From: an uncultured Pelagibacteraceae bacterium
GTDB taxonomy: Bacteria; Pseudomonadota; Alphaproteobacteria; Pelagibacterales; Pelagibacteraceae
Assembly: GCA_902572225.1 (NCBI GenBank)
Contig: CACGFJ010000005.1
Span: 1 to 49,482, forward strand
DNA length: 49,482 nucleotides
Direction of reading: 5' to 3'
Position numbers and translations under genes: made by a program
In this document: in pieces, positions 5,838-41,793 of the stretch
How the letters are laid out: each line of letters starts with the position of its first letter
How positions within the stretch are numbered: position 1 is the stretch's first letter
The notes under the pieces: generated by a model
Told to the model about the DNA's origin: nothing
Seen by the model: only the letters and a program-made list of their open reading frames with translations
The model's database searches: none

Positions 5838-7433
5838 ATGCTCAAGCTAAAAAATACAATGTCAGACAAAGAAAAATTATACATATTTGATACAACTATG
5901 CGAGATGGTGAACAATCACCAGGCGCATCTATGAGTGTCGAAGAGAAAATTCAGATATCAAGAGTGTTTGATGAAATGGGAATAGATATCGTTGAAGCAG
6001 GTTTTCCAATAGCATCACCAGGAGATTTTGAGGCAGTTTCTGAAATAAGCAAGATAATGAAAAACTCAATTCCATGTGGTCTTTCAAGAGCTCTTAAAAA
6101 AGATATTGATGCATGCCATGAATCGTTGAAACACGCTCCAAGATTTAGAATTCATACTTTTATTTCCACAAGTCCTTTACACATGAAACACAAACTTGAA
6201 ATGACAAACGATCAGGTTCTAGACGCAATTAAAGAAAGTGTTACATATGCAAGAAACTTCACTGACGATGTGGAATGGTCCTGTGAAGACGGAACAAGAA
6301 CCGATATGGATTTTATGTGTAAAACAGTTGAGTTAGCAATTAATTGTGGAGCTAAGACTATAAATATTCCAGATACAGTTGGATATTCTATACCTGAGGA
6401 ATTTGCTAAAACAATAAAACACTTAAAAAATAATGTTCCAAACATTGATAAAGCAATATTATCTGCACACTGTCATAATGATCTCGGGTTAGCAGTAGCA
6501 AATGCATTAGCAGGAGTTTCAGAGGGTGTAAGGCAAATAGAGTGTACAATTAATGGAATAGGTGAAAGAGCAGGAAACGCTGCATTGGAAGAAGTAGTTA
6601 TGGCAATTAAAACGAGAAATGATTTAATGCCATATAATACTGGAATTAAAACAGAATTAATTAGCAAAGCTTCAAAAATAGTTTCAAATGCAACTGGTTT
6701 TCCAGTTCAATTTAATAAAGCAATAGTTGGAAAAAACGCTTTTGCTCATGAATCAGGAATTCATCAAGATGGAATGTTAAAGAATAGAGAAACTTATGAA
6801 ATTATGACGCCGGAGAGCGTAGGTGTTAAGAAAACCTCACTTGTTATGGGCAAACACTCGGGACGACATGCTTTTAAAGATAAGTTATCTGACTTAGGTT
6901 ATTCAGATCTTACAGATGATATTATACAAGCTGCTTTTGGAAAATTCAAAGTTTTAGCTGATAAAAAAAAACATATATATGATGAAGATATAGTAGCTTT
7001 AGTTGATGATAGTTTGATTGTAGACAATAAAATTAATGCAATTAATTTGAAGTCTTTAAAAGTTTTTGCTGGTACGGGAGAACCACAAAAAGCTGAAATG
7101 ACATTAGATGTCTATGGTGATATCAAGAACACAACTGAAACAGGAGATGGTCCGGTTGATGCAATATTTAAATGTATAAAAAAATTATTTCCTCACGATG
7201 TAAAATTATCTCTTTATCAAGTACATGCAGTAACAGAAGGTACAGATGCTCAAGCTACAGTTAGTGTAAAAATCGAGGAAAATGATAGAACCACTGTTGG
7301 TCAATCAGCTGATACTGATACTTTGGTTGCTTCAGCAAACGCTTATTTAAATGCATTGAATAAAATGCTTATAAAACGTGAGAAAAAAGCACCTTCTCAG
7401 AATATTAAACATCAAAAAGTGAAAGGAATATAG
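5838..7433 (+). CDS. leuA: 2-isopropylmalate synthase
   Basis: FDTTMRDGEQSPGASMSVEEKI, HCHNDLGLAVANALAGV, GIGERAGNAALEEV, HESGIHQDGM. The start may be the internal ATG at 5859. Confidence 0.94.
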   Translation: MLKLKNTMSDKEKLYIFDTTMRDGEQSPGASMSVEEKIQISRVFDEMGIDIVEAGFPIASPGDFEAVSEISKIMKNSIPCGLSRALKKDIDACHESLKHAPRFRIHTFISTSPLHMKHKLEMTNDQVLDAIKESVTYARNFTDDVEWSCEDGTRTDMDFMCKTVELAINCGAKTINIPDTVGYSIPEEFAKTIKHLKNNVPNIDKAILSAHCHNDLGLAVANALAGVSEGVRQIECTINGIGERAGNAALEEVVMAIKTRNDLMPYNTGIKTELISKASKIVSNATGFPVQFNKAIVGKNAFAHESGIHQDGMLKNRETYEIMTPESVGVKKTSLVMGKHSGRHAFKDKLSDLGYSDLTDDIIQAAFGKFKVLADKKKHIYDEDIVALVDDSLIVDNKINAINLKSLKVFAGTGEPQKAEMTLDVYGDIKNTTETGDGPVDAIFKCIKKLFPHDVKLSLYQVHAVTEGTDAQATVSVKIEENDRTTVGQSADTDTLVASANAYLNALNKMLIKREKKAPSQNIKHQKVKGI

Positions 7434-24080: not shown

Positions 24081-27000
24081 TTAATAGTTATGTCTCCAAG
24101 AACTTCTATATATTCCAGTTTGACCTTGTCCTGCTTGAAGAGTTACTAAGTCTTTTTTGTTACCTGTAGATTGTCCAGCAATGTTTGCAAATAATTTATC
24201 GGCAAATACTACAATTTTAGATAAAACACCTTGTCCAACATAAGCACATTTATTTGATTTACCCATAGTTTGATTTAATTGAGAAGAAGTATTAGTTCCA
24301 CACTCATCATCAACACCACAAATATATGCATTACCCAAGCTACATTTGTTAACTGATTTTGTTGGCTCATAAACTGGGAAGTAAGCAGTTCCTTTATATA
24401 CCGTTGGCTCTGCTGTTATTTTTGCAAAATCTTTTAGAACAATGTACCAACCTTTGTCTGCATTCTGAGGACATTTAGATCCAGTAGTATCATTCGTTGT
24501 ATTTTTACACTTAGTTATATCATCAGCTTTTGTAGGTTTAGCAATTTCTCTATATAAAGGATAATCTTTATCTCTTATTCCTAGAAGATAGTTTTCTACC
24601 CCACGTGTTGTATCATTAATCCTTTCATAGTCTCCTGTACCTGCAAACAACCATAATTCATTTGTTGTACCACCTATTGTTGCGTCCATAGAATGATACA
24701 TGTATCTACCATTTGTTTTATTTGAACCAGCGGTAAATAAAGTTGTGCTATCAAAAATTTTAACTCTGTTTCCAAGACCATCATCTGATAAGTTTGATAA
24801 ATTAAATTTAGTTATTTTACCTTCTAGGTCACTTAAATATAATAAACCTCCAGTAAATGTAATTCCAGTTGCAGTATCTGGTGTAATTAAAACAGGAGAT
24901 CCTGGTGTTGAATTAACGATATCACTTGATGCTAAATCTTCTATTTCAATTACTTTGTAAAGACTTCCTGGATTAGATGAATCTTCTAAATTGATTATTG
25001 TTAAGTTTGAACCAACACCTTCAAATTGTGTTCCATATCCTCCACCCATTGCTGCAACATAAACATCATCTTCTATGTTTGTATCACCAGCACCGTTGTT
25101 TGGAATTCTAAATATTCTTGGATCAGACCATGTCTCTCCGAGTAGACTATAATCGTACATATCATGAGGAGCTTGAACTCCAGTCGCTTTAGCTCCTGAC
25201 TTAATAGTAAATCCTACTTCTGAAGATTCTATGTCTGGATGAGCTGAATATTTTATAGATTGTGCAAAGTTTATAATAGTATCATTAGCAGAATCAGTGC
25301 TTACAGTAAAATTAGTATAATTCTTACCATTTTTAATAATCCTTATATCGTTCTTAGAAATTCCTTGTACTGGGAAAGTCCAAGATTTTCCTTCATAACA
25401 ATAATTATCTTCATTATTTGCGCATTTTTTCTTGCTAGCGTCAACTCCAGAACCATTAAAGTCATCGTTATAATTATCCGCAACTTTTATTGATTGTCCC
25501 ATTGCAGCCAAAGAATAAGACCTAGCAATATAATCAAATGTTGAAACAACTTGATTATGATCCATTTTGTAAATTCTGTTATTAATAATATCGTTATATA
25601 TAGAGTATAGGTGCAAAGGCTTTAAAGGATTAGTTACATCTAATACACTAAATCCAGGACCACCTCTTCCATATGGAACAAATAATATCGTATGCCATTT
25701 TTTTGATGTTCCAAGTGGACTTTTGAAATACATGTCATGGACTACTATTGAACCATCTACTCCAAATACAGCATTAGTTCCTCCTTGGCCTGGTTGGTTC
25801 AAATTAGTATTCATCACATTTGGTAAATTAGGGGCTAATAATGGTGGAACAAAACCCCATTCCTCTTTACCAGTCTTAGCATCAAACGCATGTAGTATTC
25901 CACTGTTTGATCCTGCATAAATTATTTCTTTTCTACTTGCCAATGATGCTGCCCATGCATCATAACCTTTTAATTTTCTGTAATATGCTTCTTGGTTTGT
26001 TGAAACAAATGCAGTTTCAGCAGACGGAGCACCAACTACAACTAATTGAGAATGATAAATATCTCCTAAAGGATTTTTTCTAGTCTCTGTTAATTTACAA
26101 TCTGAATCATAATCAAAATAATCTTGTCCTCTTACAAAGTTTATTAAACCTTTTAGATCGTCAGATGTTCCATCAATTACACCAGGGGAATTAGCACATC
26201 TTCTATTATTAGTAGAACCATCTGCATTATTACTATCTCTATGATAATCAAGAATATCATTAGCATAAATTGCAATTAAATTTCCAATTGCAGTCGCATT
26301 TGAATCTCTAAAGTTATTGTAATCTGCTTTATAATCTGTTGTTGGAATTACACTCCAAATTTTTCTTTTTGCCGGGGCTGGCATTTGGTCAACTGCTGAC
26401 CAATTACCTTTATCTTTTGTATCAAGTGAGCCGTCAGGATTTATTTTTGTTCTGGTAATAGTTCCAGCCCATTCTTTATTTTGTCTATAATCAAATTGTG
26501 CTTGATACATTGATCCACCTTGTTCAATTGTGGCTGTAATTGCAGGTGCTGTAAATGAAAGTTTTGAGGCAATGATTTGTGAGATTGCAGCTTTTAATTG
26601 GGTTTTTAAAGACTCAGCTGTTGTTGCAACAATTGCTTTTGATGTTCCTCCAGCATTAGCAAGCTGATTAAAGTTTCTAAGTCCACTGCTACTAATTCCT
26701 GTTCCAAAAGCCACAGTAAACGTTTTTATTTTATGTTGCTGAAATAAATTCCTTGCTTTGGACATAGCCCTGCTATGATTGTACCAATCTCCATCTCCAA
26801 TAACTAATACGTAACTATTTTGACATGGTGAGTTTTTATCTACTGGTGAATAAGTTCCATTTAGATAATACTGTTGTGCAATTTTCATAAATGCATCAGC
26901 ATCAGTCCCGCCTCCAGGGTTTACAGAATTAATCATTTTAGCAATTGCAGCAGCACCGCCTTTATAGATTGGAACTCTTAAGCAATTTAAACCGTTACAT

Positions 27001-28208
27001 GGGGAAGCTTTTCCTGTTCCTGTCTTTATATTTCCTCCACTCCACCTAGAAAAACCCGCGGTACCATGTGCCCAATGAGCAAAACCATAATCAACACCAG
27101 ATGTTAAAGAAGCATCTGTTACCAACGAAAATATAGCGGAATGTGCTGCCTGCATCCTAGTTTGTGGAGCTCCTCCAAAATTTTGTATCCATGTTCCATT
27201 TGAATCGAAAACTTGAACTGAACCTTTGTTTAAGTCTGCTGCTAGCAATAAGTTATTTCCATCATCCCAACCTAATCCCCAAGGATAATAAAAGAATGTT
27301 GCAGATGCAGAGCTATTTGATCTACTTCTACTACCAAATCTAGTTGTTGAACTTATAGATGTAAGACTACTATTCATTGTCAATTTTTCCATTCGGCTGT
27401 TGTTCCAAGATAGTGTCCATAATTCTTGGTTATTATTAGGATTGAACTGAAGACCAGTAAAACTTCCAGAATTATAAATCATAGTTGAATATCCACTTGT
27501 ATTCGGACATTTGTGGTTATGTGTACTTAATTGAAACGTATATAAACGATTGTATCTTGAGTAGACTATTTTATTTCCAGAAATTGCAGCACCAAATGAA
27601 TAAGCCATATTGATGTTTGTACTACAATTATAAATCGTTCCAGTTGAAAGATTTATTGTTTTATAACCCCATGAACCACCTACATATAAATAACCCGTAC
27701 TTTTATCTATTGTCATATTGTATGGATAAATACCAAGGGAGTATTTCTTCAAACATCTACCATCACTCGCTCGTATGGCCACAACTGCTTTTTCCCAATA
27801 TGCTGTTGTGTAATAAACATCGTTATAAGTTTCTCCACTATATGAATAAGATGTTCTGCAATTTGAATTACCTTCGTATGTTCTATTCCCTTTTCCAGAA
27901 ACACCTTTATTTCCAAATCCTGTATCTAGAGTTTTAGAACCATATAGAAATTTTTTCACACCATCTCTATTATATTGTGATACTAGAACATCGCCATTGC
28001 TATCAGCATCAGCATCGTATGGGTAACGCATACTTGCAGTACCACCACTCATTCTCCATCCCATACTTCCAGATTTATCCAACATTATTAAAACATTGGC
28101 AGGTACATCACCAATTCCAGATCCTGGAGGAAGTGCTTTTGAAAAAGCTTGATTTGATAAAGCAAATAAAAACAAAATAAATGAATAAATAAAATTTTTT
28201 ATTTTCAT
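24081..28208 (-). CDS. pilY1: PilY1-like T4P tip adhesin/assembly factor (vWA + C-terminal beta-propeller)
   Basis: Signal peptide; MIDAS NVLIMLDKSGSMG, NPGGGTDADAF, SYVLVIGDGDWYN; PilY1 propeller motifs YHSQLVVVGAPSAE, EIIYAGSNSGILHAFDAKTGKEEWGFVPP, GTSKKWHTILFVPYGRGGPGFSVLDVTNP. Confidence 0.92.
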   Translation of the reverse strand: MKIKNFIYSFILFLFALSNQAFSKALPPGSGIGDVPANVLIMLDKSGSMGWRMSGGTASMRYPYDADADSNGDVLVSQYNRDGVKKFLYGSKTLDTGFGNKGVSGKGNRTYEGNSNCRTSYSYSGETYNDVYYTTAYWEKAVVAIRASDGRCLKKYSLGIYPYNMTIDKSTGYLYVGGSWGYKTINLSTGTIYNCSTNINMAYSFGAAISGNKIVYSRYNRLYTFQLSTHNHKCPNTSGYSTMIYNSGSFTGLQFNPNNNQELWTLSWNNSRMEKLTMNSSLTSISSTTRFGSRSRSNSSASATFFYYPWGLGWDDGNNLLLAADLNKGSVQVFDSNGTWIQNFGGAPQTRMQAAHSAIFSLVTDASLTSGVDYGFAHWAHGTAGFSRWSGGNIKTGTGKASPCNGLNCLRVPIYKGGAAAIAKMINSVNPGGGTDADAFMKIAQQYYLNGTYSPVDKNSPCQNSYVLVIGDGDWYNHSRAMSKARNLFQQHKIKTFTVAFGTGISSSGLRNFNQLANAGGTSKAIVATTAESLKTQLKAAISQIIASKLSFTAPAITATIEQGGSMYQAQFDYRQNKEWAGTITRTKINPDGSLDTKDKGNWSAVDQMPAPAKRKIWSVIPTTDYKADYNNFRDSNATAIGNLIAIYANDILDYHRDSNNADGSTNNRRCANSPGVIDGTSDDLKGLINFVRGQDYFDYDSDCKLTETRKNPLGDIYHSQLVVVGAPSAETAFVSTNQEAYYRKLKGYDAWAASLASRKEIIYAGSNSGILHAFDAKTGKEEWGFVPPLLAPNLPNVMNTNLNQPGQGGTNAVFGVDGSIVVHDMYFKSPLGTSKKWHTILFVPYGRGGPGFSVLDVTNPLKPLHLYSIYNDIINNRIYKMDHNQVVSTFDYIARSYSLAAMGQSIKVADNYNDDFNGSGVDASKKKCANNEDNYCYEGKSWTFPVQGISKNDIRIIKNGKNYTNFTVSTDSANDTIINFAQSIKYSAHPDIESSEVGFTIKSGAKATGVQAPHDMYDYSLLGETWSDPRIFRIPNNGAGDTNIEDDVYVAAMGGGYGTQFEGVGSNLTIINLEDSSNPGSLYKVIEIEDLASSDIVNSTPGSPVLITPDTATGITFTGGLLYLSDLEGKITKFNLSNLSDDGLGNRVKIFDSTTLFTAGSNKTNGRYMYHSMDATIGGTTNELWLFAGTGDYERINDTTRGVENYLLGIRDKDYPLYREIAKPTKADDITKCKNTTNDTTGSKCPQNADKGWYIVLKDFAKITAEPTVYKGTAYFPVYEPTKSVNKCSLGNAYICGVDDECGTNTSSQLNQTMGKSNKCAYVGQGVLSKIVVFADKLFANIAGQSTGNKKDLVTLQAGQGQTGIYRSSWRHNY

Positions 28209-30943: not shown

Positions 30944-31577
30944 TACGACTCCATTTAAATTTATTTACATTACCAAATCTTGTCCATTCAACTAAGTAGG
31001 CAGGTTTTTCTAATCCTTTAGCATTACTAATAGGGCACTTTCCACCATTTTTTTTAGCGTTATCAAATGTACACAATATAATATATTGATCAGTAGCATT
31101 TGAAGGTTCGTCTAAAGTAACTCTTAATTGGTTTTTGATTTTACCTAAGGTTTTGTAATGTGTTCCATTTTGAGAAAAACATATTGAGCTTTCCCTATCT
31201 AAGTGTGTAGCTACATCATAAGTCTTGTTATCCACTTCAGAAGTCCAAAATGAACTTGATGTGTAACAATCCATTGGGTTGCCACTATTTAATCTATTAG
31301 TGTAAGCACTTCTAGACAATCCTCTTGTTATAATTAATGTTGAGTTACTACCATTAGGTTTGATGTAAACTTGCACAAAAGGAAGAGAGCCTCTTTGTGA
31401 TTGAGTGTTAATTGAATTAATCATATTAACAACTTTTTCAGTGGAAGCTCTTAACACTCTATCTTTGTTATAGTCCATAAAATTTGGAATACCAACAGCC
31501 GATACTATTGCTACAATTGAGATAACAACTAGCAATTCGAGTAATGTAAAACCTTTAATGTTCTGATCTTGCAGCAC
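30924..31577 (-). CDS. fimT: FimT/GspH-type minor pseudopilin
   Basis: IKGFTLLELLVVISIVAIVSAVGIPNFMDYNKDRVLRASTEKVVNMINSINTQSQRG; GspH/FimT-like. Confidence 0.72.
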   Translation of the reverse strand: MLQDQNIKGFTLLELLVVISIVAIVSAVGIPNFMDYNKDRVLRASTEKVVNMINSINTQSQRGSLPFVQVYIKPNGSNSTLIITRGLSRSAYTNRLNSGNPMDCYTSSSFWTSEVDNKTYDVATHLDRESSICFSQNGTHYKTLGKIKNQLRVTLDEPSNATDQYIILCTFDNAKKNGGKCPISNAKGLEKPAYLVEWTRFGNVNKFKWSRNGWTRM

Positions 31578-32571
31578 CTGGATCTATTTTCCCTGCTTTA
31601 GCTAATTCTTCTAATGATTTTTCCATTGTTATCATACCATCTCTTACTGCGGTTTGCATGATACTAGGAATTTGATGAATTTTAGCTTCTCTGATTAAGT
31701 TTTGTATTGGTGCAGTACATTTCATAATTTCAAATGCACCAACTCTACCAGCACCATCTCTAGTTTTTAATAATCTTTGTGTGACAACCATTTTTAAAGA
31801 CGTTGAAATTTGAGCTCTTATTTGTTCTTGTTGTTCAGGTGGAAACACATCAATAATTCTGTTTATTGTACTAGGTGCACCACTTGTATGAAGAGTTCCA
31901 AATACTAAGTGACCAGTTTCAGCAGCAGTTAAAGCAAGACTAATAGTTTCCAAGTCTCTCATTTCTCCAACTAAAATTACATCAGGATCTTCTCTGAGAG
32001 CTGCCTTTAAAGCTGCAGCAAATGTTTCGGTTTGTTTTCCAACTTCTCTGTGAGAGACAATACTTTTGTTATCTTGGTGTATAAATTCAACTGGATCTTC
32101 TACTGTAATAATGTTGGCAGTTCTCGTTTTATTTATTTCATTAACAATTGCTGCAAGTGTAGTTGATTTACCTGAACCTGTTGGACCAGTAACTAAAACT
32201 AAGCCTTTATGAAAGTCGACAATATCATAAAGAGATTGTGGTAAATTAAATTGATCCATTTCAGGAATTTTACTTTCTACTCTTCTACAAACACACGCTG
32301 GACCTTTTATTGTTTTATAAAAGTTTGCTCTAAATCTTAATCCACTTAATGTTACCGAAGTATCTAGTTCATGTGTTTTATCAAATTTATTCAATTCATG
32401 TTCATTACAGTTCATTGATAATAAATCTTTTATATCTTGAGCTGTAACCATTACATCTTGAACTTTAATAATTTCGCCTGTCTGTCTGTAAGCAAGAGGG
32501 GCACCAGCTCTAATATGAAAATCGGAAATCTTCTTGTTATTTTTTGCCAGTTCTTCTAATTTTTCAAACAT
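31555..32571 (-). CDS. pilT: T4P retraction ATPase PilT
   Basis: VTGPTGSGKSTTLAAIVNEIN, TVEDPVEFIHQ, REDPDVILVGEMRDLETI, TAAETGHLVFGTLHTSGA. Confidence 0.92.
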   Translation of the reverse strand: MFEKLEELAKNNKKISDFHIRAGAPLAYRQTGEIIKVQDVMVTAQDIKDLLSMNCNEHELNKFDKTHELDTSVTLSGLRFRANFYKTIKGPACVCRRVESKIPEMDQFNLPQSLYDIVDFHKGLVLVTGPTGSGKSTTLAAIVNEINKTRTANIITVEDPVEFIHQDNKSIVSHREVGKQTETFAAALKAALREDPDVILVGEMRDLETISLALTAAETGHLVFGTLHTSGAPSTINRIIDVFPPEQQEQIRAQISTSLKMVVTQRLLKTRDGAGRVGAFEIMKCTAPIQNLIREAKIHQIPSIMQTAVRDGMITMEKSLEELAKAGKIDPGAARSEH

Positions 32572-32697: not shown

Positions 32698-34413
32698 ATG
32701 AAAAATCCTTTTGCAAATCTTTTTAAGAAAAAGAGTAAAGATGGTGAACCAGATAAACCTGTACCAAAGCCAGATGCAGGTAAAAAGAAAGAGGGTTTTT
32801 TTAGTAAACTATTAAAAAATAGGTTAGGAAAATCCTCAATTAAAGGTGAAGAAATTTTAGGTGTTGAATTGACATCAAACGAAATTAGGCTTGCTCAAGT
32901 ATCAAGCAATAAAGCAAACCAATGGGTTTTAGATAAATTTTATGTTCATAAATTTGATGGAGTTCCTGAGGGTGGAACTGTTTTAGAAAATCAGGATAAA
33001 ATTGCAGAAGAATTAAAGTTAGCTTTATTAAAATCAAAAGTTTCAACAACAAACGCTGCAATAGCAATTCCAGTCACTAGTGCAATCATTAGAGTGGTGA
33101 CTGCACCTTTGATGACAGAAGAAGAGTTAAAAAAAGCGATTGATACAGACTCACTTTGGGAAAATTTAGTTCAACTAACAGATAACTTAGCAGATTATTC
33201 AATATTCCATCAGGTTATAAATAAAGATGAAAAAGCTAACACGATGGATATTTTGTTTGTTGCCTCAAAACTTTCAGACATTAATAGCTATACAGCAATC
33301 ATTAAAAAGGGTGGACTAAATGCTGTAATTATTGATGTTAAATGTTTCGCTTTAAAATCTGCAGTAGACCAAATAAATCAAATAGCTGGTTCAATTGAAG
33401 ACTCAAATTTAACAGCAGTTTTAGAATTTGGATTAGATGAGAACTATGTAATGATACTTTATGAAAATAATCCAATCATCACTGATATTTTTATAAGAGC
33501 TCAAGACAGAAAAACTTTATCTGAAAGTAATAATCAAGAGGAAATGGATGCTTTGGTTAGAAGATATATGACACAGGTCAAGCAAGCAGTTCAAGATTTT
33601 GAAACAAAATATGAAAAAAGAATTAGAAATTTAAAAGTTACTTCTAATTTACCTAATGTTGAGGACTATTTAGCAAGCTTTAGAAAGAATATGGTTAATA
33701 CTGGTTATAATCTTTTTAATCCATTTGATGGAATTAAAGTTCCTGCACAGATAGAAAATGAAACTAAATTAAGTAACCCTTCTTATTTTTCTACAGTTAT
33801 GGGTTTAGCATTTAGAAAGCTGGATGTATTTGGTTATTATAAATTCGTAACTGCAGTAAAGAATATAAACCTTCTTCCTAACCGAGAAAATATGATAGCT
33901 CAGAAAAAAGCAAAAGCATTCTCTAATTTTGCATTTAAAGGGATAGCAGGAATTGTTGTAGTTATATACGTTGTTCTATTTGGATTTTCATTTTGGCAAA
34001 TTACTGACTTAAATAAAAAAATTGCAGGATATGAGGAAGTAATTCAAACACACGAATTAAGAACATTAGAAAGAAATAAATATCTTAAAGAGAAAAAATT
34101 AATGGATAAATCCTTAGAATTGAGTAACTCTATCAAATCAAATAAAACAATAAGTTTTAGAGTATTAGCTCAAATAGCATCAGCAGTACCCAAAAGAGTA
34201 AAATTTGACTCAATTGAATATAACGGATCAGATTTAGTTATTATTCAAGGATCAGCATTTAGTGATCAAGATATATTAAAATTAATCAGCAATTTAAATA
34301 ATAAAAAATTAATTTCACAAGCATCCCTTGCTAGCATGACTTTGCCAAATGAACAACAAGGCTCACAAACTATGAAGGGTTTTAAAATTGCCTGTATATT
34401 GGAGAACATATAA
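32698..34413 (+). CDS. PilM-PilN fusion protein (GspL-like architecture)
   Basis: Residues ~50-350 PilM-like (GVELTSNEIRLAQVS...); then INLLPNRE (residues ~390-397, canonical PilN N-terminal motif), a TM helix (GIAGIVVVIYVVLFGFSFW) and a PilN-like periplasmic domain, all in one uninterrupted ORF. Confidence 0.82.
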   Translation: MKNPFANLFKKKSKDGEPDKPVPKPDAGKKKEGFFSKLLKNRLGKSSIKGEEILGVELTSNEIRLAQVSSNKANQWVLDKFYVHKFDGVPEGGTVLENQDKIAEELKLALLKSKVSTTNAAIAIPVTSAIIRVVTAPLMTEEELKKAIDTDSLWENLVQLTDNLADYSIFHQVINKDEKANTMDILFVASKLSDINSYTAIIKKGGLNAVIIDVKCFALKSAVDQINQIAGSIEDSNLTAVLEFGLDENYVMILYENNPIITDIFIRAQDRKTLSESNNQEEMDALVRRYMTQVKQAVQDFETKYEKRIRNLKVTSNLPNVEDYLASFRKNMVNTGYNLFNPFDGIKVPAQIENETKLSNPSYFSTVMGLAFRKLDVFGYYKFVTAVKNINLLPNRENMIAQKKAKAFSNFAFKGIAGIVVVIYVVLFGFSFWQITDLNKKIAGYEEVIQTHELRTLERNKYLKEKKLMDKSLELSNSIKSNKTISFRVLAQIASAVPKRVKFDSIEYNGSDLVIIQGSAFSDQDILKLISNLNNKKLISQASLASMTLPNEQQGSQTMKGFKIACILENI

Positions 34414-35051
34414 TGGACTTAAAAAATATTACTATGGACGACCTAAAGCAGAAATTTTCTACTATAGATAAAAAGACACTTATAAAGTTTGGAATTGGAT
34501 TTGGAGCAATAATCCTTTTCTTGATAATTTATTATGCAATCTTAAACCCAATGGTTAAAGAGAGAAAAGCAAAATACCAAGATAAAATTCAAAAAGAACA
34601 AGAAATAGTGGAATTTGAGAGCAATATAATTTCACTAAAAAAAACTATAAAAAAAATGAAACCAAAATTTGAGGAGACATCAACGTTGTTTCACTCAAAA
34701 GCTGAAGTTGAAGATCTTTATCAAAGTCTCAGTAAGCATGCAGCAGTCAATGGTTTGGTTATTTCAAAAATAGAAAAGAAAGAGCCAAAACCAGTTTTAA
34801 AAGTTGGAGTGACAGATCAATCAGAAAACAATCTTCAAAAAGAAATGGTTTCATATTACAAAATCCCTGTAGACTATGAAATTAAAGGAAATTTCTTGGG
34901 TTATATAAAGTTCAAAAGAGCAGTATCTAAGCAAAAGAAAATGTTAAATTTTGACAAAGAGACAATAAGTGTAGTACAAAACGATTCAACTGGAGCGATA
35001 GTTGCGACGGGAGAGTTAACGATAGTGGGAATGCCAGATGAATTTTTTTAA
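34413..35051 (+). CDS. pilO: Pilus inner-membrane alignment protein PilO
   Basis: Single TM (GFGAIILFLIIYYAILNPMV), coiled coil, PilO-like ferredoxin-fold region; between pilMN and pilP. Confidence 0.8.
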   Translation: MDLKNITMDDLKQKFSTIDKKTLIKFGIGFGAIILFLIIYYAILNPMVKERKAKYQDKIQKEQEIVEFESNIISLKKTIKKMKPKFEETSTLFHSKAEVEDLYQSLSKHAAVNGLVISKIEKKEPKPVLKVGVTDQSENNLQKEMVSYYKIPVDYEIKGNFLGYIKFKRAVSKQKKMLNFDKETISVVQNDSTGAIVATGELTIVGMPDEFF

Positions 35052-35487
35052 AATATTAATTTTTTTATCTTTAATGTTAATACCTACGATTTCTTTTTCT
35101 GATAGCCATGATCAAAAGAAAGAAGTTTTAGAACAGGTAAAAGAAATTGCTAAAGAAATGGAAGATGATGAAGAGGTTCCTCTAAATGATCCTTTTGCAG
35201 GAAATGAGGGAACAAGTTCGATGTCTGGGAATATACCTGAAGATGAACAGGAAAATGAACTAAGTTTATATAATTTTAAATTAGCAGGGCTTATATCGGG
35301 AAAAGATTATAGCTATATATCAATCGTTAATTCTGGTGGAGAAGTTTTAACTTTATCTCTTGGACAATATTTAGGAAAAATCCAACTTGTTGATTTAAGA
35401 TTAAATGAGGCAATATTTAAAAAAGAAGATGGAAAATACATGATTATAGATTTTAACAGTCAAGTTAGAGAGGCAGATGATTATTAA
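35038..35487 (+). CDS. pilP: PilP-like periplasmic protein (signal peptide without lipobox)
   Basis: MNFFKILIFLSLMLIPTISFSDSHDQ signal; YNFKLAGLISGKDYSYISIVNSGGEVLTLSLGQYLGKIQLVDLRLNEAIF PilP/GspC-HR-like domain; between pilO and pilQ. Confidence 0.78.
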   Translation: MNFFKILIFLSLMLIPTISFSDSHDQKKEVLEQVKEIAKEMEDDEEVPLNDPFAGNEGTSSMSGNIPEDEQENELSLYNFKLAGLISGKDYSYISIVNSGGEVLTLSLGQYLGKIQLVDLRLNEAIFKKEDGKYMIIDFNSQVREADDY

Positions 35488-37039
35488 AAAATATTATAAT
35501 ACTATACTTGTTATATTATTTGCATTTTTACTAAGTGCTTGTGGTCCAAACTCACAATTTGGAAAAAAGTATAATAAACCTTTCAAACACAATTCTCCAT
35601 TAATTAAAGATCAAAACATAGTAGATTCAGGAAAATCTGAAGTCGCTAAAACTTTAGAGATGGGTCCTAAACCACTAGAAGGAGACTCTAGAAAATTAGG
35701 AAAAAGAAAGAAAATATCATCTGAAGCTCAGAGAAACTATTTAATCATCTCTGACGATTATCCATTATTAAAGCAGAGAGTTACACTAAAATTTAAAAAC
35801 TTGGATTATAAGGAAACCATGAAGTTAATGGGCAAAATTGGTGAGATTAATATTTTAGTTGGTGATGAAGTCGCTGGAGCAATTTCAGCAGAATTAATTG
35901 ACGTTCCTTGGGATAAAGCTTTTCAGGCTTTATTAGATATGAAGAATTTTGCATCTGATGTAGATGTTGCAAGTAACTTAATCAGGATTCATTCACCAGA
36001 AACATTAACTGCACAAGAAACTTATAAATCTGAAAGAGCACAAGCCGTTAAAAAGAAAGTAGAATTAGAAGACAGTGTTGAGCCTATCTATTCTGAAATA
36101 TTTAGACTTTATTACATAACGCCAGCTCAAGCTAAACAAACAATTGAAGAATTATTTACACAATCTTCAGGTGATAGTTCTTATACACCAATACAAATAA
36201 CAGAGGAAGTTACCACTCGATCAATTATTGTTAGAGGTAAAGAAAAAGATTTAGATGTAGTTGATAAAGTTGTTAAAGAAATAGATATTAGAACGAAACA
36301 GGTATTAATTGAAGCTTTTATAGTTGAAGCTAATTCAGATTTTGAAAGAGCGCTTGGTTCTAGACTTGGAGGTTATTATAACAGAAGAGGTAAAATATCT
36401 GGTGGTACAGCAAGTACTAGTAGTGGAAGTGCATTTGGTACTGATTTAGATACAGCTGCTGGTCTAGGAGCTGCAACAGATAGTTTAGCTAATTTCCCTG
36501 TAACTGGCGCAACAAGTGGTATCGGAATTTTGAGAAGAACTGGCACAGGTGTTCTTAAAGCTGAGATTACTGCTTTAGAGAGCATAGGCATGGGTAAAAC
36601 AATTTCAAATCCAAAAGTATTCACTTTAGACAACCAATTAGCAACAGTTACACAAGGTGAAGAAATTCCTTATCAAACAACATCTGACGGAACAACTTCT
36701 ACGTCATTTAAAGAAGCTGCATTAAAACTAGAAGTTACACCAAGTATAATTGGTGATGGAAACGTTTTACTGACTATTAAGGTAAATAATGATACTCCAA
36801 ATAGATCAGCAGGAGGAGATGAGCCTCCAATTAATAAAATGGAAATTGTAACTAAATTGTTAGTTGCTGATGGTGATATTGTTGTAATTGGTGGAATTAA
36901 GAAAAATGTAGTATCTCAAAGTAAAAATCAAACACCAGGCATTGGAAATATGCCTGTAATTGGTAACCTCTTTAAAGGTAAGGCAAATTCTGATAACCTA
37001 GATGAATTATTGGTATTTATAGCACCAAGAATTTTATAA
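35477..37039 (+). CDS. pilQ: Short secretin PilQ, predicted lipoprotein
   Basis: Lipobox LLSAC (Cys22); N0/N1 domains; secretin signature VTPSIIGDGNVLLTIKVNNDTPN...GDIVVIGGIKKNVVSQSKNQTPGIGNMPVIGNLFKGK...ELLVFIAPRIL. Confidence 0.92.
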   Translation: MIIKKYYNTILVILFAFLLSACGPNSQFGKKYNKPFKHNSPLIKDQNIVDSGKSEVAKTLEMGPKPLEGDSRKLGKRKKISSEAQRNYLIISDDYPLLKQRVTLKFKNLDYKETMKLMGKIGEINILVGDEVAGAISAELIDVPWDKAFQALLDMKNFASDVDVASNLIRIHSPETLTAQETYKSERAQAVKKKVELEDSVEPIYSEIFRLYYITPAQAKQTIEELFTQSSGDSSYTPIQITEEVTTRSIIVRGKEKDLDVVDKVVKEIDIRTKQVLIEAFIVEANSDFERALGSRLGGYYNRRGKISGGTASTSSGSAFGTDLDTAAGLGAATDSLANFPVTGATSGIGILRRTGTGVLKAEITALESIGMGKTISNPKVFTLDNQLATVTQGEEIPYQTTSDGTTSTSFKEAALKLEVTPSIIGDGNVLLTIKVNNDTPNRSAGGDEPPINKMEIVTKLLVADGDIVVIGGIKKNVVSQSKNQTPGIGNMPVIGNLFKGKANSDNLDELLVFIAPRIL

Positions 37040-38787
37040 TGATTAACATAAGTAGAGAATCAGAGATTAATTTAATTAATATCCTCATAGACCAAGATAT
37101 TATTTCTGGGAAAGATTTAGCTGAAATTAAAAAAGTTTCAAGCGATGGAAACAAGTCACAGTTAGATGCAGTATTTGAATTAAATCTAACAGATGAACAA
37201 AAAATTTTAGATCTATTAGTCCATGACCAATCATTAGATGTAGTTGATTTGTCAACAATTCAAGTTACTGAAGAGCTAAAAGCTGTTCTACCTTCCAATT
37301 ATATAAATATGAATTTTATAGCACCATTTAAAATTGAAGGAAAAGTTTTACATATCGCAATTTCAGATATCTCAAAGCTAAGTTTGATGAGAAACTTAAG
37401 AACTATTACTAAAATGGATATTGAGCTTCATGCAGCAAAAGTTTCGGATATTTCAAACTTTGTAGATAAACTTTTAGCAGATGGTGAAAAAACTATTTCA
37501 GACATTAGACAAACTCAGGCAGAAAAAACTAAAACATTTGATTACGACGTTGATGAACAAGCTGAAGTTTTAGAAAGCCAACCCGAAGAAGATATAGAAG
37601 CAATCGAAAACGAGTCTGAAGTAATTAAATTTAGTACAGCTGTTGTTGCTGATGCGATTAAATCAGGTGTATCTGATATTCACATTGAACCATATAGATT
37701 TAGTTCAAGAGTAAGATACAGATTAGATGGTATTCTTACAGAGCAAGAGCATTTCAAAAAATTTTTACACTCTAATTACGGCGCAGTTGTTACAAGATTT
37801 AAAATTATGGGAAAATTAGATATTGCAGAAAGAAGACTTCCACAAGATGGAGCTATACCATTTAAAATTGATGGTAAAGTAGTTGATTTACGTCTTTCAA
37901 TTCTTCCAACAGCAACTAATGAAAGAATTGTAATGAGGGTTCTTAATAAAGATGCAGGAGATATAAGTTTAGAGCAATTAAATTTTGAAGAAACGGATTT
38001 AAAAAATTTAAGAAAAGCAATTCATGGTACACAGGGACTAGTACTTGTTACAGGTCCAACAGGTTCAGGAAAAACAACAACTTTGTACAGTATTCTTAAA
38101 GAAGTTTCTAAACCTCATCTAAATATTTTAACGGCTGAAGATCCAGTTGAGTATGAACTAGATGGTGTGGGGCAGGTTCAAATTAAAGATGATATTGGTT
38201 TTAACTTTGCAACAGCGTTGAGATCTTTTTTAAGACAAGACCCAGAGATTATTTTAGTTGGAGAGATGCGGGATAAAGAAACAGTTGATATAGGATTAAA
38301 AGCAGCGCTTACAGGACACTTAGTTTTCAGCACACTACACACAAATGATGCCCCAAGCACTATTACAAGATTACAAAATATGGGTACTCCAGATTATTTA
38401 ATAAGTGCGGCTGTTAGTTTGGTTTTAGCACAAAGACTAGCAAGAAAAACTTGCACTGAATGCAGAGAGCCAGACAATGACATTACTCCAAAAGCACTAG
38501 CTGACTTAGGCTTTACTGTTGAACAAGCATCAAGAGCAAAAGTACAAAAGGGAAAAGGTTGTCCAAAATGTAAAGATACTGGATACAAAGGTCGAATGGG
38601 AATATATGAAATATTAAATGTTACAAAACCAATAAAAGAAGCAATATTACGAAAAGCTACAACACCAGAGTTAAAAGAAATTGCATCTAATGAAGGTTTC
38701 AGAACAATGCAAGATATGGGAAGAGAACTTATATTAACTGGAGACTTAAATTTCAGAGAATTTGATAGAGTTCTTTCTATGGATTAA
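37039..38787 (+). CDS. pilB: T4P extension ATPase PilB
   Basis: GPTGSGKTTTLYSIL, TAEDPVEYELDGVGQVQI, RQDPEIILVGEMRDKET, GHLVFSTLHTNDA, zinc motif CTEC...CPKC. Confidence 0.94.
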   Translation: MINISRESEINLINILIDQDIISGKDLAEIKKVSSDGNKSQLDAVFELNLTDEQKILDLLVHDQSLDVVDLSTIQVTEELKAVLPSNYINMNFIAPFKIEGKVLHIAISDISKLSLMRNLRTITKMDIELHAAKVSDISNFVDKLLADGEKTISDIRQTQAEKTKTFDYDVDEQAEVLESQPEEDIEAIENESEVIKFSTAVVADAIKSGVSDIHIEPYRFSSRVRYRLDGILTEQEHFKKFLHSNYGAVVTRFKIMGKLDIAERRLPQDGAIPFKIDGKVVDLRLSILPTATNERIVMRVLNKDAGDISLEQLNFEETDLKNLRKAIHGTQGLVLVTGPTGSGKTTTLYSILKEVSKPHLNILTAEDPVEYELDGVGQVQIKDDIGFNFATALRSFLRQDPEIILVGEMRDKETVDIGLKAALTGHLVFSTLHTNDAPSTITRLQNMGTPDYLISAAVSLVLAQRLARKTCTECREPDNDITPKALADLGFTVEQASRAKVQKGKGCPKCKDTGYKGRMGIYEILNVTKPIKEAILRKATTPELKEIASNEGFRTMQDMGRELILTGDLNFREFDRVLSMD

Positions 38788-38790
38788 TAA

Positions 38791-40032
38791 ATGTCCTCAG
38801 AAACATTTACATATAAAGGTATTTCAGCAGGCAAATATATTGAGGGTGAAATAGAAGCCTTAAATCAAGAGGAGGCGTCATATAAGCTTAAAGAACAAAA
38901 GATAATAATCACTAATTTAGTTAAAACTAAAAAGAAAAAAGCAGCTAAAGAAAAAGGTAAAAAAAGCAGTTTTTCTTTTGGAAAGAAAAAAATTACGCCT
39001 CAAGATGTAATGATTTTCTCAAAACAATTTGCAACCATGGTTAAGGCAGGTCTTCCAATTTTAAATGTACTTTCAATGTTACGTGATCAAATTGAGCATC
39101 CAACAATGAAAGAAATTATTGAGGATATTAGAAAAAGTCTAGAAGGAGGTATCACACTTTCAAAATGCTTTGAAAAATACCCAAAGGTTTTTGATAATAT
39201 TTATATAAACTTAATAAAAGCAGGTGAAGCTAGTGGTAAATTGGATGTTTTCTTACTCAAATTAGTAGATTCACTAGAAAAAAGAGAAAAAGTTAAAAAG
39301 AAAATTAAAAGTGCATTAACCTATCCTGTTGTCATGTTTACAGTAGCAATAACTGTAATGGTATTCATGTTAATTAAAGTTGTTCCAATATTTGCTGAAA
39401 TGTATGAAGGAATGGGAGTACCATTACCAACTCCAACTGCAGTTATTATGAATGCTAGTAATTTTATGAGAGGAGCAGGTGGTTTAACTTTATTTTTTGT
39501 TTTTGCAATAGGATTTGCTATCTTTAAATACACAACAACTAAAATACCTGCCGTAAGATATAAATGGCATTATAGAGTTTTAAAAATGCCTGTATTTGGA
39601 GATATGATTTTAAAATCTCTAATTGCAAGAGTATCTCTTATTATGGGTAACCTTAGCTCTGCAGGTGTAAATTTGCTAGAGAGTATAGAAATTGCAAAAC
39701 AAGTAAGCAATAATGATGTTGTTACTCAAGCTTTAGAAAATGTTAAAAAAGGTGTTTTTTCAGGAGACACATTAACTAAACTATTTTTAAAAGAGCCAGT
39801 ATTCCCGCCAACTTTTAGTCAATTAATATCTGTCGGTGAACAAACTGGTAATTTGGATGAAATGTTTACATCAGTATCAGCTTATTATGAAGAAGAGTTT
39901 GATACAGCTGTTGATAATATGTCGAGTTTAATTGAGCCGATTATGATTGTATTTATGGGAACAATGATCGGTGGCTTAATGATAGCTATGTATTCACCAA
40001 TCTTTAATGTCGGTGCAATTATTGGAAGTTAA
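38791..40032 (+). CDS. pilC: T4P platform protein PilC
   Basis: FSKQFATMVKAGLPIL, KAGEASGKLDVFL, KSALTYPVVMF, ISVGEQTGNLDEMF. Confidence 0.94.
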   Translation: MSSETFTYKGISAGKYIEGEIEALNQEEASYKLKEQKIIITNLVKTKKKKAAKEKGKKSSFSFGKKKITPQDVMIFSKQFATMVKAGLPILNVLSMLRDQIEHPTMKEIIEDIRKSLEGGITLSKCFEKYPKVFDNIYINLIKAGEASGKLDVFLLKLVDSLEKREKVKKKIKSALTYPVVMFTVAITVMVFMLIKVVPIFAEMYEGMGVPLPTPTAVIMNASNFMRGAGGLTLFFVFAIGFAIFKYTTTKIPAVRYKWHYRVLKMPVFGDMILKSLIARVSLIMGNLSSAGVNLLESIEIAKQVSNNDVVTQALENVKKGVFSGDTLTKLFLKEPVFPPTFSQLISVGEQTGNLDEMFTSVSAYYEEEFDTAVDNMSSLIEPIMIVFMGTMIGGLMIAMYSPIFNVGAIIGS

Positions 40033-40457
40033 TAATTTATTTTTTTAGACAAAATTAAATGGTTAATCCAAGGCTTTTCGCCTTCTTTAAATACTACTGC
40101 ATCCATTATTTGTTGAATAAAAAAAGTTCCAAGTCCTCCAGGTTTAATATCATCAATTTTTCTATGTCGAATTTTATCTTTTTCAACTGGTCTTCCTTTA
40201 TCAAAAAATCCAATTTCTAAATTTCCATTTGATAAAGAAATTTTAATCTCCATTTTATCTTCAGTATCTTCACCTTGGTAAGCATGTTTTACAATATTTT
40301 GGGCTGCTTCTGCTATTGCTAGTACAAGTTCATCTTTTAAATCTTGATCAATATTTACTTTTTCAAAAACTTCTCTTGAAAAACTTCTTACATCTTTAAG
40401 ACTAGATGAACTTACAACAAAATCTCTTTGTTCTGATATTTGAGCAAGGTTATTCAT
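40029..40457 (-). CDS. RsbW/SpoIIAB-like serine kinase / anti-sigma factor (HATPase_c_2)
   Basis: N-box ELVLAIAEAAQNIVKHAYQ, G-box KIDDIKPGGLGTFFIQQIMDAVVF; adjacent STAS gene. Confidence 0.88.
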   Translation of the reverse strand: MNNLAQISEQRDFVVSSSSLKDVRSFSREVFEKVNIDQDLKDELVLAIAEAAQNIVKHAYQGEDTEDKMEIKISLSNGNLEIGFFDKGRPVEKDKIRHRKIDDIKPGGLGTFFIQQIMDAVVFKEGEKPWINHLILSKKINY

Positions 40458-40460
40458 TAT

Positions 40461-40760
40461 TTATCCTAAGTTTAAAATTTGCTCCAGTTTTGCCATCATA
40501 ATTACTTTTAAAACTGACTTACTAATATCTTTTAAAATGACTTTTGTTCCAAGTTCAGTTGCTTTTTGATGACTTTCAATTAGTACAGATATTCCAGATG
40601 AGTCCATATACTGGACTTCTTTTAGATTTAGATGAACTTCTTTTTTTGCCTCAATAAGAGGCATTATAACTTCTTTTGCCTTTTCAGTTACATCCATATC
40701 AATTTCACCATCAAGGTGAACAATTGATATTTCGCCTTCTTCTGTTACTTTGTATGACAT
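40461..40760 (-). CDS. STAS anti-sigma factor antagonist (RsbV/SpoIIAA-like)
   Basis: LDGEIDMDVTEKAKEVIMPLIE...LNLKEVQYMDSSGISVLIESHQKA; conserved phosphorylatable Ser54 in DSSG (codon 40599-40601). Confidence 0.92.
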   Translation of the reverse strand: MSYKVTEEGEISIVHLDGEIDMDVTEKAKEVIMPLIEAKKEVHLNLKEVQYMDSSGISVLIESHQKATELGTKVILKDISKSVLKVIMMAKLEQILNLG

Positions 40761-41385: not shown

Positions 41386-41793
41386 ATGACAACCAGGAGC
41401 TCAGGTTTTACCTTAATTGAGCTTTTGGTTGTTGTTGCAATTCTTGGAATAATTTCAGCAATAGGAATAGTAAGCTATAACGGCTACGTTTCGTCAGCAA
41501 AAAGGAAATCTGCAGAAAATATAATTTTACAAATTTCGCTTGCACAAAGTGAATTCTACTCCGATGAGGATGAATATTTTACTCCTGGATGCGGACCTAA
41601 TAATTCAACATCGACTACTTTAGAAACAAAACTACTTGGTGGGTCCGACGTTATTACCCCTGAGATTGGTTATGAATTTTGTTCTCAAGGATCTGCGGAA
41701 ACTTATACAATTATTGCTCAAGAAACTGGAGCTAAATCACCATGCAAAATTGAATATACAGATAAGTCTGTTTGGACACGAACAAATTGTTAA
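41386..41793 (+). CDS. Second type IV pilin / PilE-like minor pilin
   Basis: MTTRSSG|FTLIELLVVVAILGIISAIGIVSYNGYVSSAKRKSAENIIL; C-terminal CKIEYTDKSVWTRTNC disulfide loop. Confidence 0.85.
   Translation: MTTRSSGFTLIELLVVVAILGIISAIGIVSYNGYVSSAKRKSAENIILQISLAQSEFYSDEDEYFTPGCGPNNSTSTTLETKLLGGSDVITPEIGYEFCSQGSAETYTIIAQETGAKSPCKIEYTDKSVWTRTNC

Follow-up and report, generated by a model that had tools for sequence, protein, structure and literature searches.

In type IVa pili (T4aP), PilM and PilN have been described as two proteins, and structures from Pseudomonas aeruginosa (5EOU/5EOX) and Thermus thermophilus (2YCH) show ATP or ADP bound in an intact PilM site (an adenosine-motif GG, a DIGA phosphate-2 motif and a phosphate-1 Lys). 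PilM is viewed as the stator socket for both PilB and PilT (reviewed in PMC11656802). The PilM of T. thermophilus is a binding partner of the motor PilF, which is stimulated by PilMN and by neither PilM nor PilN alone (PMC6325625). ATP binding is abolished in the K26A variant of PilM, yet PilM(K26A)N keeps both the binding of PilF and the stimulation of the PilF ATPase (PMC6325625).

A PilM-PilN fusion is already known from one pilus system (Clostridioides difficile) and from a related secretion system (GspL). GspL/PulL has been described as a PilM-PilN fusion (PMC10191384), and a review that cites Melville and Craig (2013) reports the fusion in C. difficile (PMC6916266); the same review suggests that the PilN motif is different in monoderms. 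In the literature searched (most subscription papers lay outside the search), no report of a PilM-PilN fusion in SAR11 was found.

A single pilMN gene within a type IVa pilus locus

The window, that is, the whole 49,482-nucleotide stretch analysed here, comes from an uncultured Pelagibacteraceae bacterium, and a single ORF of 571 aa spans its positions 32698..34413 (+) exactly (ORF list and translation). In the protein, an actin-like PilM domain is followed by a spacer of 13 residues, the motif INLLP by which PilN docks, a single predicted transmembrane (TM) helix and a PilN domain. PilM_2 (PF11104) matches residues 55-260 at 70 bits (cut-off 27) and PilN (PF05137) matches residues 488-566 at 36 bits (cut-off 22.8); T2SSL (PF05134) gave no match at E<=0.1. 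The actin-like cytoplasmic domain occupies residues 50-379 (32845..33834, +). Its C-terminal signature GLAxRxxD (here GLAFRKLD) is linked to INLLPNRE (residues 390-397) by the spacer VFGYYKFVTAVKN (residues 377-389, 33826..33864, +), so that the PilM-docking motif INLLP (residues 390-394, 33865..33879, +) stands in cis. A hydrophobic helix at about residues 415-433 (33940..33996, +), the predicted single TM helix, follows, and the chain ends in a ferredoxin-like PilN periplasmic domain (residues 483-568, 34144..34401, +), delimited by the Pfam match and the secondary structure of the model described below.

The neighbours of pilMN are pilus genes. A pilT-family retraction ATPase lies divergent from it (31555..32571, -; TIGR01420, 414 bits, over cut-off). 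Downstream on the forward strand are pilO (34413..35051, +; PilO, 27.5 bits), a pilP-like gene called only by its position between pilO and pilQ, with no Pfam match (35038..35487, +), the secretin gene pilQ (35477..37039, +; TIGR02515, 308 bits, over cut-off), the extension ATPase gene pilB with an MshEN domain (37039..38787, +; profile matches) and the platform protein gene pilC with two T2SSF domains (38791..40032, +). Since pilT, pilO, pilQ, pilB, pilC and pilins are found together, the locus belongs to the T4aP class, and pilMN sits within a complete T4aP locus. With one ORF, two Pfam domains and pilus neighbours, the initial annotation's proposal of a naturally fused PilM-PilN within a T4aP machine is borne out.

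The same region holds other genes of interest. A pilin-like protein (41386-41793, +) matches ComP_DUS (PF16732; 36.8 bits, cut-off 27.3), a family of minor pilins that act as DNA-uptake-sequence receptors, and this match is a hint of natural transformation in SAR11. Genes for an anti-sigma-kinase-like HATPase_c_2 protein and a STAS protein, a possible partner-switching pair, adjoin inside the pilus cluster (40029-40760, -). Beside pilin-like genes, 24081-28208 (-) encodes a secreted protein of 1375 aa with a vWA-like start (LDKSGSM), PilY1-like by eye only.

The fusion is not confined to this genome. A scan of genome contigs gave 255 related places, of which the best 80 loci, nearly all from Pelagibacteraceae, were read; each of the 80 carries one fused frame, on independent contigs and also in single-contig genomes, which argues that it is not an assembly error and excludes the frameshift or assembly join that the initial annotation had named among the findings that would refute its claim. 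The survey of pilM and pilN that it had proposed gave a consistent result: a PilN match (E<=0.001) occurs in 65 of 197 sampled Pelagibacterales genomes, in all 65 the open frame around it is 542 aa long or longer, and no stand-alone PilN was found among them. Orthologous PilMN ORFs that matched both domain profiles strongly were collected from two Pelagibacterales families and from G395, G575 and G338 of other alphaproteobacterial families, and all 118 are fused. Outside Pelagibacterales, fusions occur in two alphaproteobacterial groups, probably SAR116-like; in the order of G395, frames of 538-551 aa are found in 9/9 PilN-positive genomes. The two genes are separate in all 16 other proteobacterial loci read, seven of them with a 4-nt overlap and five with a 1-nt overlap. 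The 16 include six loci whose apparent stop-to-stop PilN frames of 500-600 aa are not fusions: reading these loci showed separate pilM and pilN. Below about 40 bits, the PF11104 survey of Alphaproteobacteria also picks up presumed FtsA/MreB-like actin-fold proteins and is uninformative there.

Purifying selection on the fused gene is strong: compared with near relatives, dN/dS is 0.01-0.07 in the PilM half and the PilN half alike. The spacer sequence is near-invariant in the main fused clade, and INLLP is kept in all but 9 of the 118 fused sequences. SAR11 fusions of the G005 type have INLLS or VNLLS at this place, and docking may differ there. No plasmid-borne relatives of PilMN were found.

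A second SAR11 pilus lineage was also observed (G001, G007, G005, G020, G026; loci L091, 2402-3670, -, and L093, 2651-3859, -), with PilMN proteins of 584-589 aa. Three of its genomes (G005, G020, G026) belong to the same genus as the window. Directly after PilMN, L091 encodes a PilP-like protein with three LysM domains, and L093 looks the same by eye. No pilO adjoins PilMN in L091; G001 and G007 have a PilO-like gene at another place, and PilO is apparently missing from G005, G020 and G026, although known SAR11 PilO proteins also get only weak scores with the PilO profile.

The nucleotide site and the N-terminal extension

The initial annotation had proposed that nucleotide binding was lost, citing ELTS and EFGL as degenerate phosphate motifs. 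Motifs were counted in an alignment of the 118 fused with 16 separate PilM sequences. In PilMN the phosphate-1 motif reads LGVELTSNEIR (residues 54-64, 32857..32889, +; key positions E57 and R64), phosphate-2 is EFGL (residues 243-246, 33424..33435, +) and S316-N317 (33643..33648, +) replace the adenosine-motif GG. The GG is absent from 118/118 fused sequences, which have S, T or V followed by N, D, S or E, while G occupies the two positions in 16/16 and 15/16 separate PilM. The phosphate-1 Lys is kept in only 4 of the 117 fused sequences readable there (118 in total), with R mostly in its place, versus 15/16 separate sequences; R64 of PilMN aligns with the ATP-contacting K26 of T. thermophilus PilM. 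DIGA has become EFGL in the main fused clade, and its Ala is kept in 2/118 fused as against 14/16 separate sequences. The alignment was also the place where intact nucleotide-binding residues might have appeared; it shows R64, EFGL and S316-N317 instead.

Loss of nucleotide binding is thus well supported by the alignment, but mainly through the adenosine GG and the ATP-contacting Lys, which the initial annotation had not cited. ELTS is weak evidence by itself, because T. thermophilus PilM reads ALGLEIGASALK, with E at the same position, though it binds ATP. Family-2 Pelagibacterales (L089, L090) have GIDI or GVDI at phosphate-1 (the D is kept) and EIGA/EIGS-like phosphate-2 motifs, yet are without GG; this pattern suggests that GG was the first of the nucleotide-site residues to go.

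A Lys-rich extension of 49 residues precedes the PilM domain (32698..32844, +); it is modelled with low confidence except for a predicted helix at residues 34-48. The extension runs to about 46-58 residues in most members of the window's clade. As the initial annotation had said, it is present and Lys-rich, but its suggestion of amphipathic character did not hold: the hydrophobic moment of the Lys-rich stretches is no higher than that of shuffled sequence.

Other lineages have much more at this end. Long frames of 711-853 aa occur in 31 of the 65 PilN-positive Pelagibacterales genomes, and nearly all long forms read carry a very conserved, undescribed N-domain, with 62-93% identity to that of L087 (VIHKKDGRLHIYVRQDKYKGELKSKNWVGRLYIDGKQKISSSGT..DAIPILEKWFDD; 6118-6321, -), which serves as reference (found also in L081, L082-L088, L134 and L142-L148). 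It is predicted as three strands and a helix (beta-beta-beta-alpha, pLDDT 90), is preceded in most long forms by an acidic low-complexity stretch and, in six genomes, is present as one copy per genome, always in the PilMN gene. About half of SAR11 PilMN proteins keep it. In the tree, it occurs in both basal branches of the family's main clade and is absent from the window's clade save for L081, and GFFSKLLKNRLGKSS of the window's extension corresponds to ESFFKAKLGKSA at the end of the long forms; the N-terminus of the window's PilMN is therefore probably what is left of an ancestral extension of greater length. In the long-form relative L095 (2523-4472, +) the N-domain falls outside the predicted ORF, whose first start codon comes just after the expected domain end, suggesting recent domain loss or a frameshift.

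Searches of Pfam, the PDB, PHROGs, phage records, viral contigs and BFVD gave the N-domain no convincing relative. The best leads were DUF6538 at E 0.23, an HNH-endonuclease PHROG at E 0.016, an unannotated PHROG at E 5e-4 and intron-endonuclease folds at E 0.06. There are faint pointers toward AP2, integrase-arm and homing-endonuclease DNA-binding domains, so that the domain could be nucleic-acid-binding. It is conceivable, if rather doubtful, that the ancestral Pelagibacteraceae stator combined this cytoplasmic domain with a nucleotide-free PilM and PilN, and that the domain tied the pilus base to DNA or another cytoplasmic partner. If so, a three-part chain would make that link, for example in DNA uptake.

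A proposed permanently docked stator and its alternatives

A template-free AlphaFold2 model (96 aligned sequences, mean pLDDT 81) gives an actin-like domain, then a long helix (residues 396-441), one further helix and a ferredoxin-like C-terminal part. Within the PilM-PilN portion, confidence is lowest in the spacer (pLDDT <50 at residues 377-386). The single chain of actin-like domain, TM helix and ferredoxin-like domain, seen in the Pfam matches and the model, agrees with the GspL-like architecture that had been proposed. Foldseek against the PDB places PilM on top: 5EOU chains (PilM:PilN1-12 with ATP; TM-score 0.75, E 7.9e-22) and 2YCH (PilM-PilN; 0.73) rank above PilN-free PilM (0.65-0.68) and GspL cytoplasmic domains (0.50-0.57). 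The likeness to PilN-bound PilM may reflect the training of AlphaFold on those entries. The 5EOU chain was itself engineered as a fusion (...SFD-SSG-MARINLLPWREE), and its spacer has 6 residues; as the natural spacer has 13, length does not obviously stand in the way of docking in cis.

We consider it quite probable that PilMN serves as the stator subunit in the inner membrane of a retractile T4aP whose pilM and pilN genes have merged. This reading starts from what the locus itself displays: a conserved single chain, the pilus genes, a genetic 1:1 ratio of the two halves and the loss of ATP-holding residues. The INLLP segment would dock into its own PilM domain or that of a neighbour, permanently tethered by the 13-residue spacer. 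A PilM ring, if one forms, would still seat PilB and PilT, and their ATP-driven motion would pass through the TM helix to PilN, PilO and PilP. PilMN would stay in the PilN-bound state, without the nucleotide- or dissociation-dependent regulation open to a separate PilM. Permanently docked and nucleotide-independent, such a stator would work like GspL, though descended from PilM plus PilN.

Other readings differ in how seriously they need to be taken. Because most other proteobacterial loci have pilM and pilN in different frames with a 1- or 4-nt overlap, a single indel would fuse them, and one could suppose a frameshift, stop loss or assembly join in this one genome; the 118 fused ORFs (single-contig genomes included), the purifying selection and the conserved spacer refute such an artefact, and its probability is close to nil. 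It is very improbable, too, that the gene is fused while an internal translation start or proteolysis frees PilM and PilN, so that the machine works with separate subunits. The low-confidence spacer prediction, which may mean flexibility, would suit cleavage, but the near-invariance of the spacer in the main clade is easier to reconcile with a linker that has a structure or function than with a site that is simply cut. An internal PilN start was rejected: no ATG, GTG or TTG is conserved in the 20 codons before INLLP (at most 19/109 sequences at any position).

The relation to GspL asks for more care. PilMN might be a GspL homologue, from the lineage of the type II secretion system (T2SS), or a still extant form that stands between PilM/PilN and GspL: its domain order is that of GspL, GspL-like proteins of other Proteobacteria also match the PilM_2 (weakly) and PilN profiles, and in a reduced alignment a clade of fused plus GspL-like sequences is neither favoured nor rejected (p-AU 0.42). 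However, the shorter alignment that includes GspL-like proteins sets the fused class apart from them (100/100), their matches to the PilM profile are confined to about positions 50-165 while fused PilMN keeps a full-length PilM domain, T2SSL is absent against 70 bits for PilM_2, and pilT and a pilQ-type secretin place the gene in a T4aP; we regard descent from GspL or an intermediate position as improbable. In a PilM plus PilN tree all fused sequences fall on one side of a 100/100 branch, which fits one fusion; as the fused sequences sampled are all alphaproteobacterial and none of the separate ones is, there may have been others. Somewhat less improbable, though still unlikely, is that nucleotide binding was altered and not lost, with R64, EFGLDENY and S/T-N/D forming a different ligand or protein-interaction site. 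The substitutes are themselves near-invariant in the main clade (R in 105/118, L246 in 103/118, S316 in 109/118), which could mean a new structural or binding role; dN/dS is very low, family-2 lineages retain phosphate motifs (though not GG), and R in place of K26 is conservative, so that weak nucleotide binding could persist. On the other side, no positive evidence for any ligand was found, and the conservation may be purely structural. The reading of PilMN as a permanently docked, nucleotide-independent stator bears on whether the ATP bound by PilM matters, since the ATP-site residues are lost lineage-wide and PilN is permanently joined while PilB and PilT are kept. SAR11 PilMN would then be evidence from nature that a pilus can do without ATP binding by PilM and without dissociation of PilM from PilN, in agreement with the Thermus K26A result.

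Comparison with known systems

SAR11 PilMN shares with the PilM and PilN of P. aeruginosa and T. thermophilus the PilM_2 fold, the INLLP motif, the operon neighbours and a TM helix followed by a ferredoxin-like PilN domain; it differs from a typical PilM in that it is not a separate soluble protein but one chain without GG. The engineered PilM:PilN1-12 fusion also joins a PilN peptide to the PilM C-terminus, but it is man-made, has the shorter spacer, carries PilN residues 1-12 only and binds ATP. C. difficile PilMN, known here from its description in the literature only, is likewise a fusion in a type IV pilus; that organism is monoderm and so has no secretin, unlike the diderm pilus of SAR11. 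GspL, PulL and EpsL of the T2SS resemble it in having a single chain with an actin-like cytoplasmic domain, a TM helix and a ferredoxin-like periplasmic domain. PilMN has no T2SSL match, a longer PilM-type cytoplasmic domain and a separate clade, and where GspL belongs to a T2SS gene context without a retraction ATPase, PilMN adjoins pilT, pilO, pilQ, pilB and pilC of a retractile pilus. It is PilM plus PilN, probably working like GspL, but it is not GspL. What is new is a lineage-wide fusion in a diderm T4aP of marine Alphaproteobacteria, the clade-wide loss of residues of the nucleotide site and the long-form N-domain. The GspL architecture thus also occurs in pilus lineages outside the T2SS, in one of the ocean's most abundant bacterial groups.
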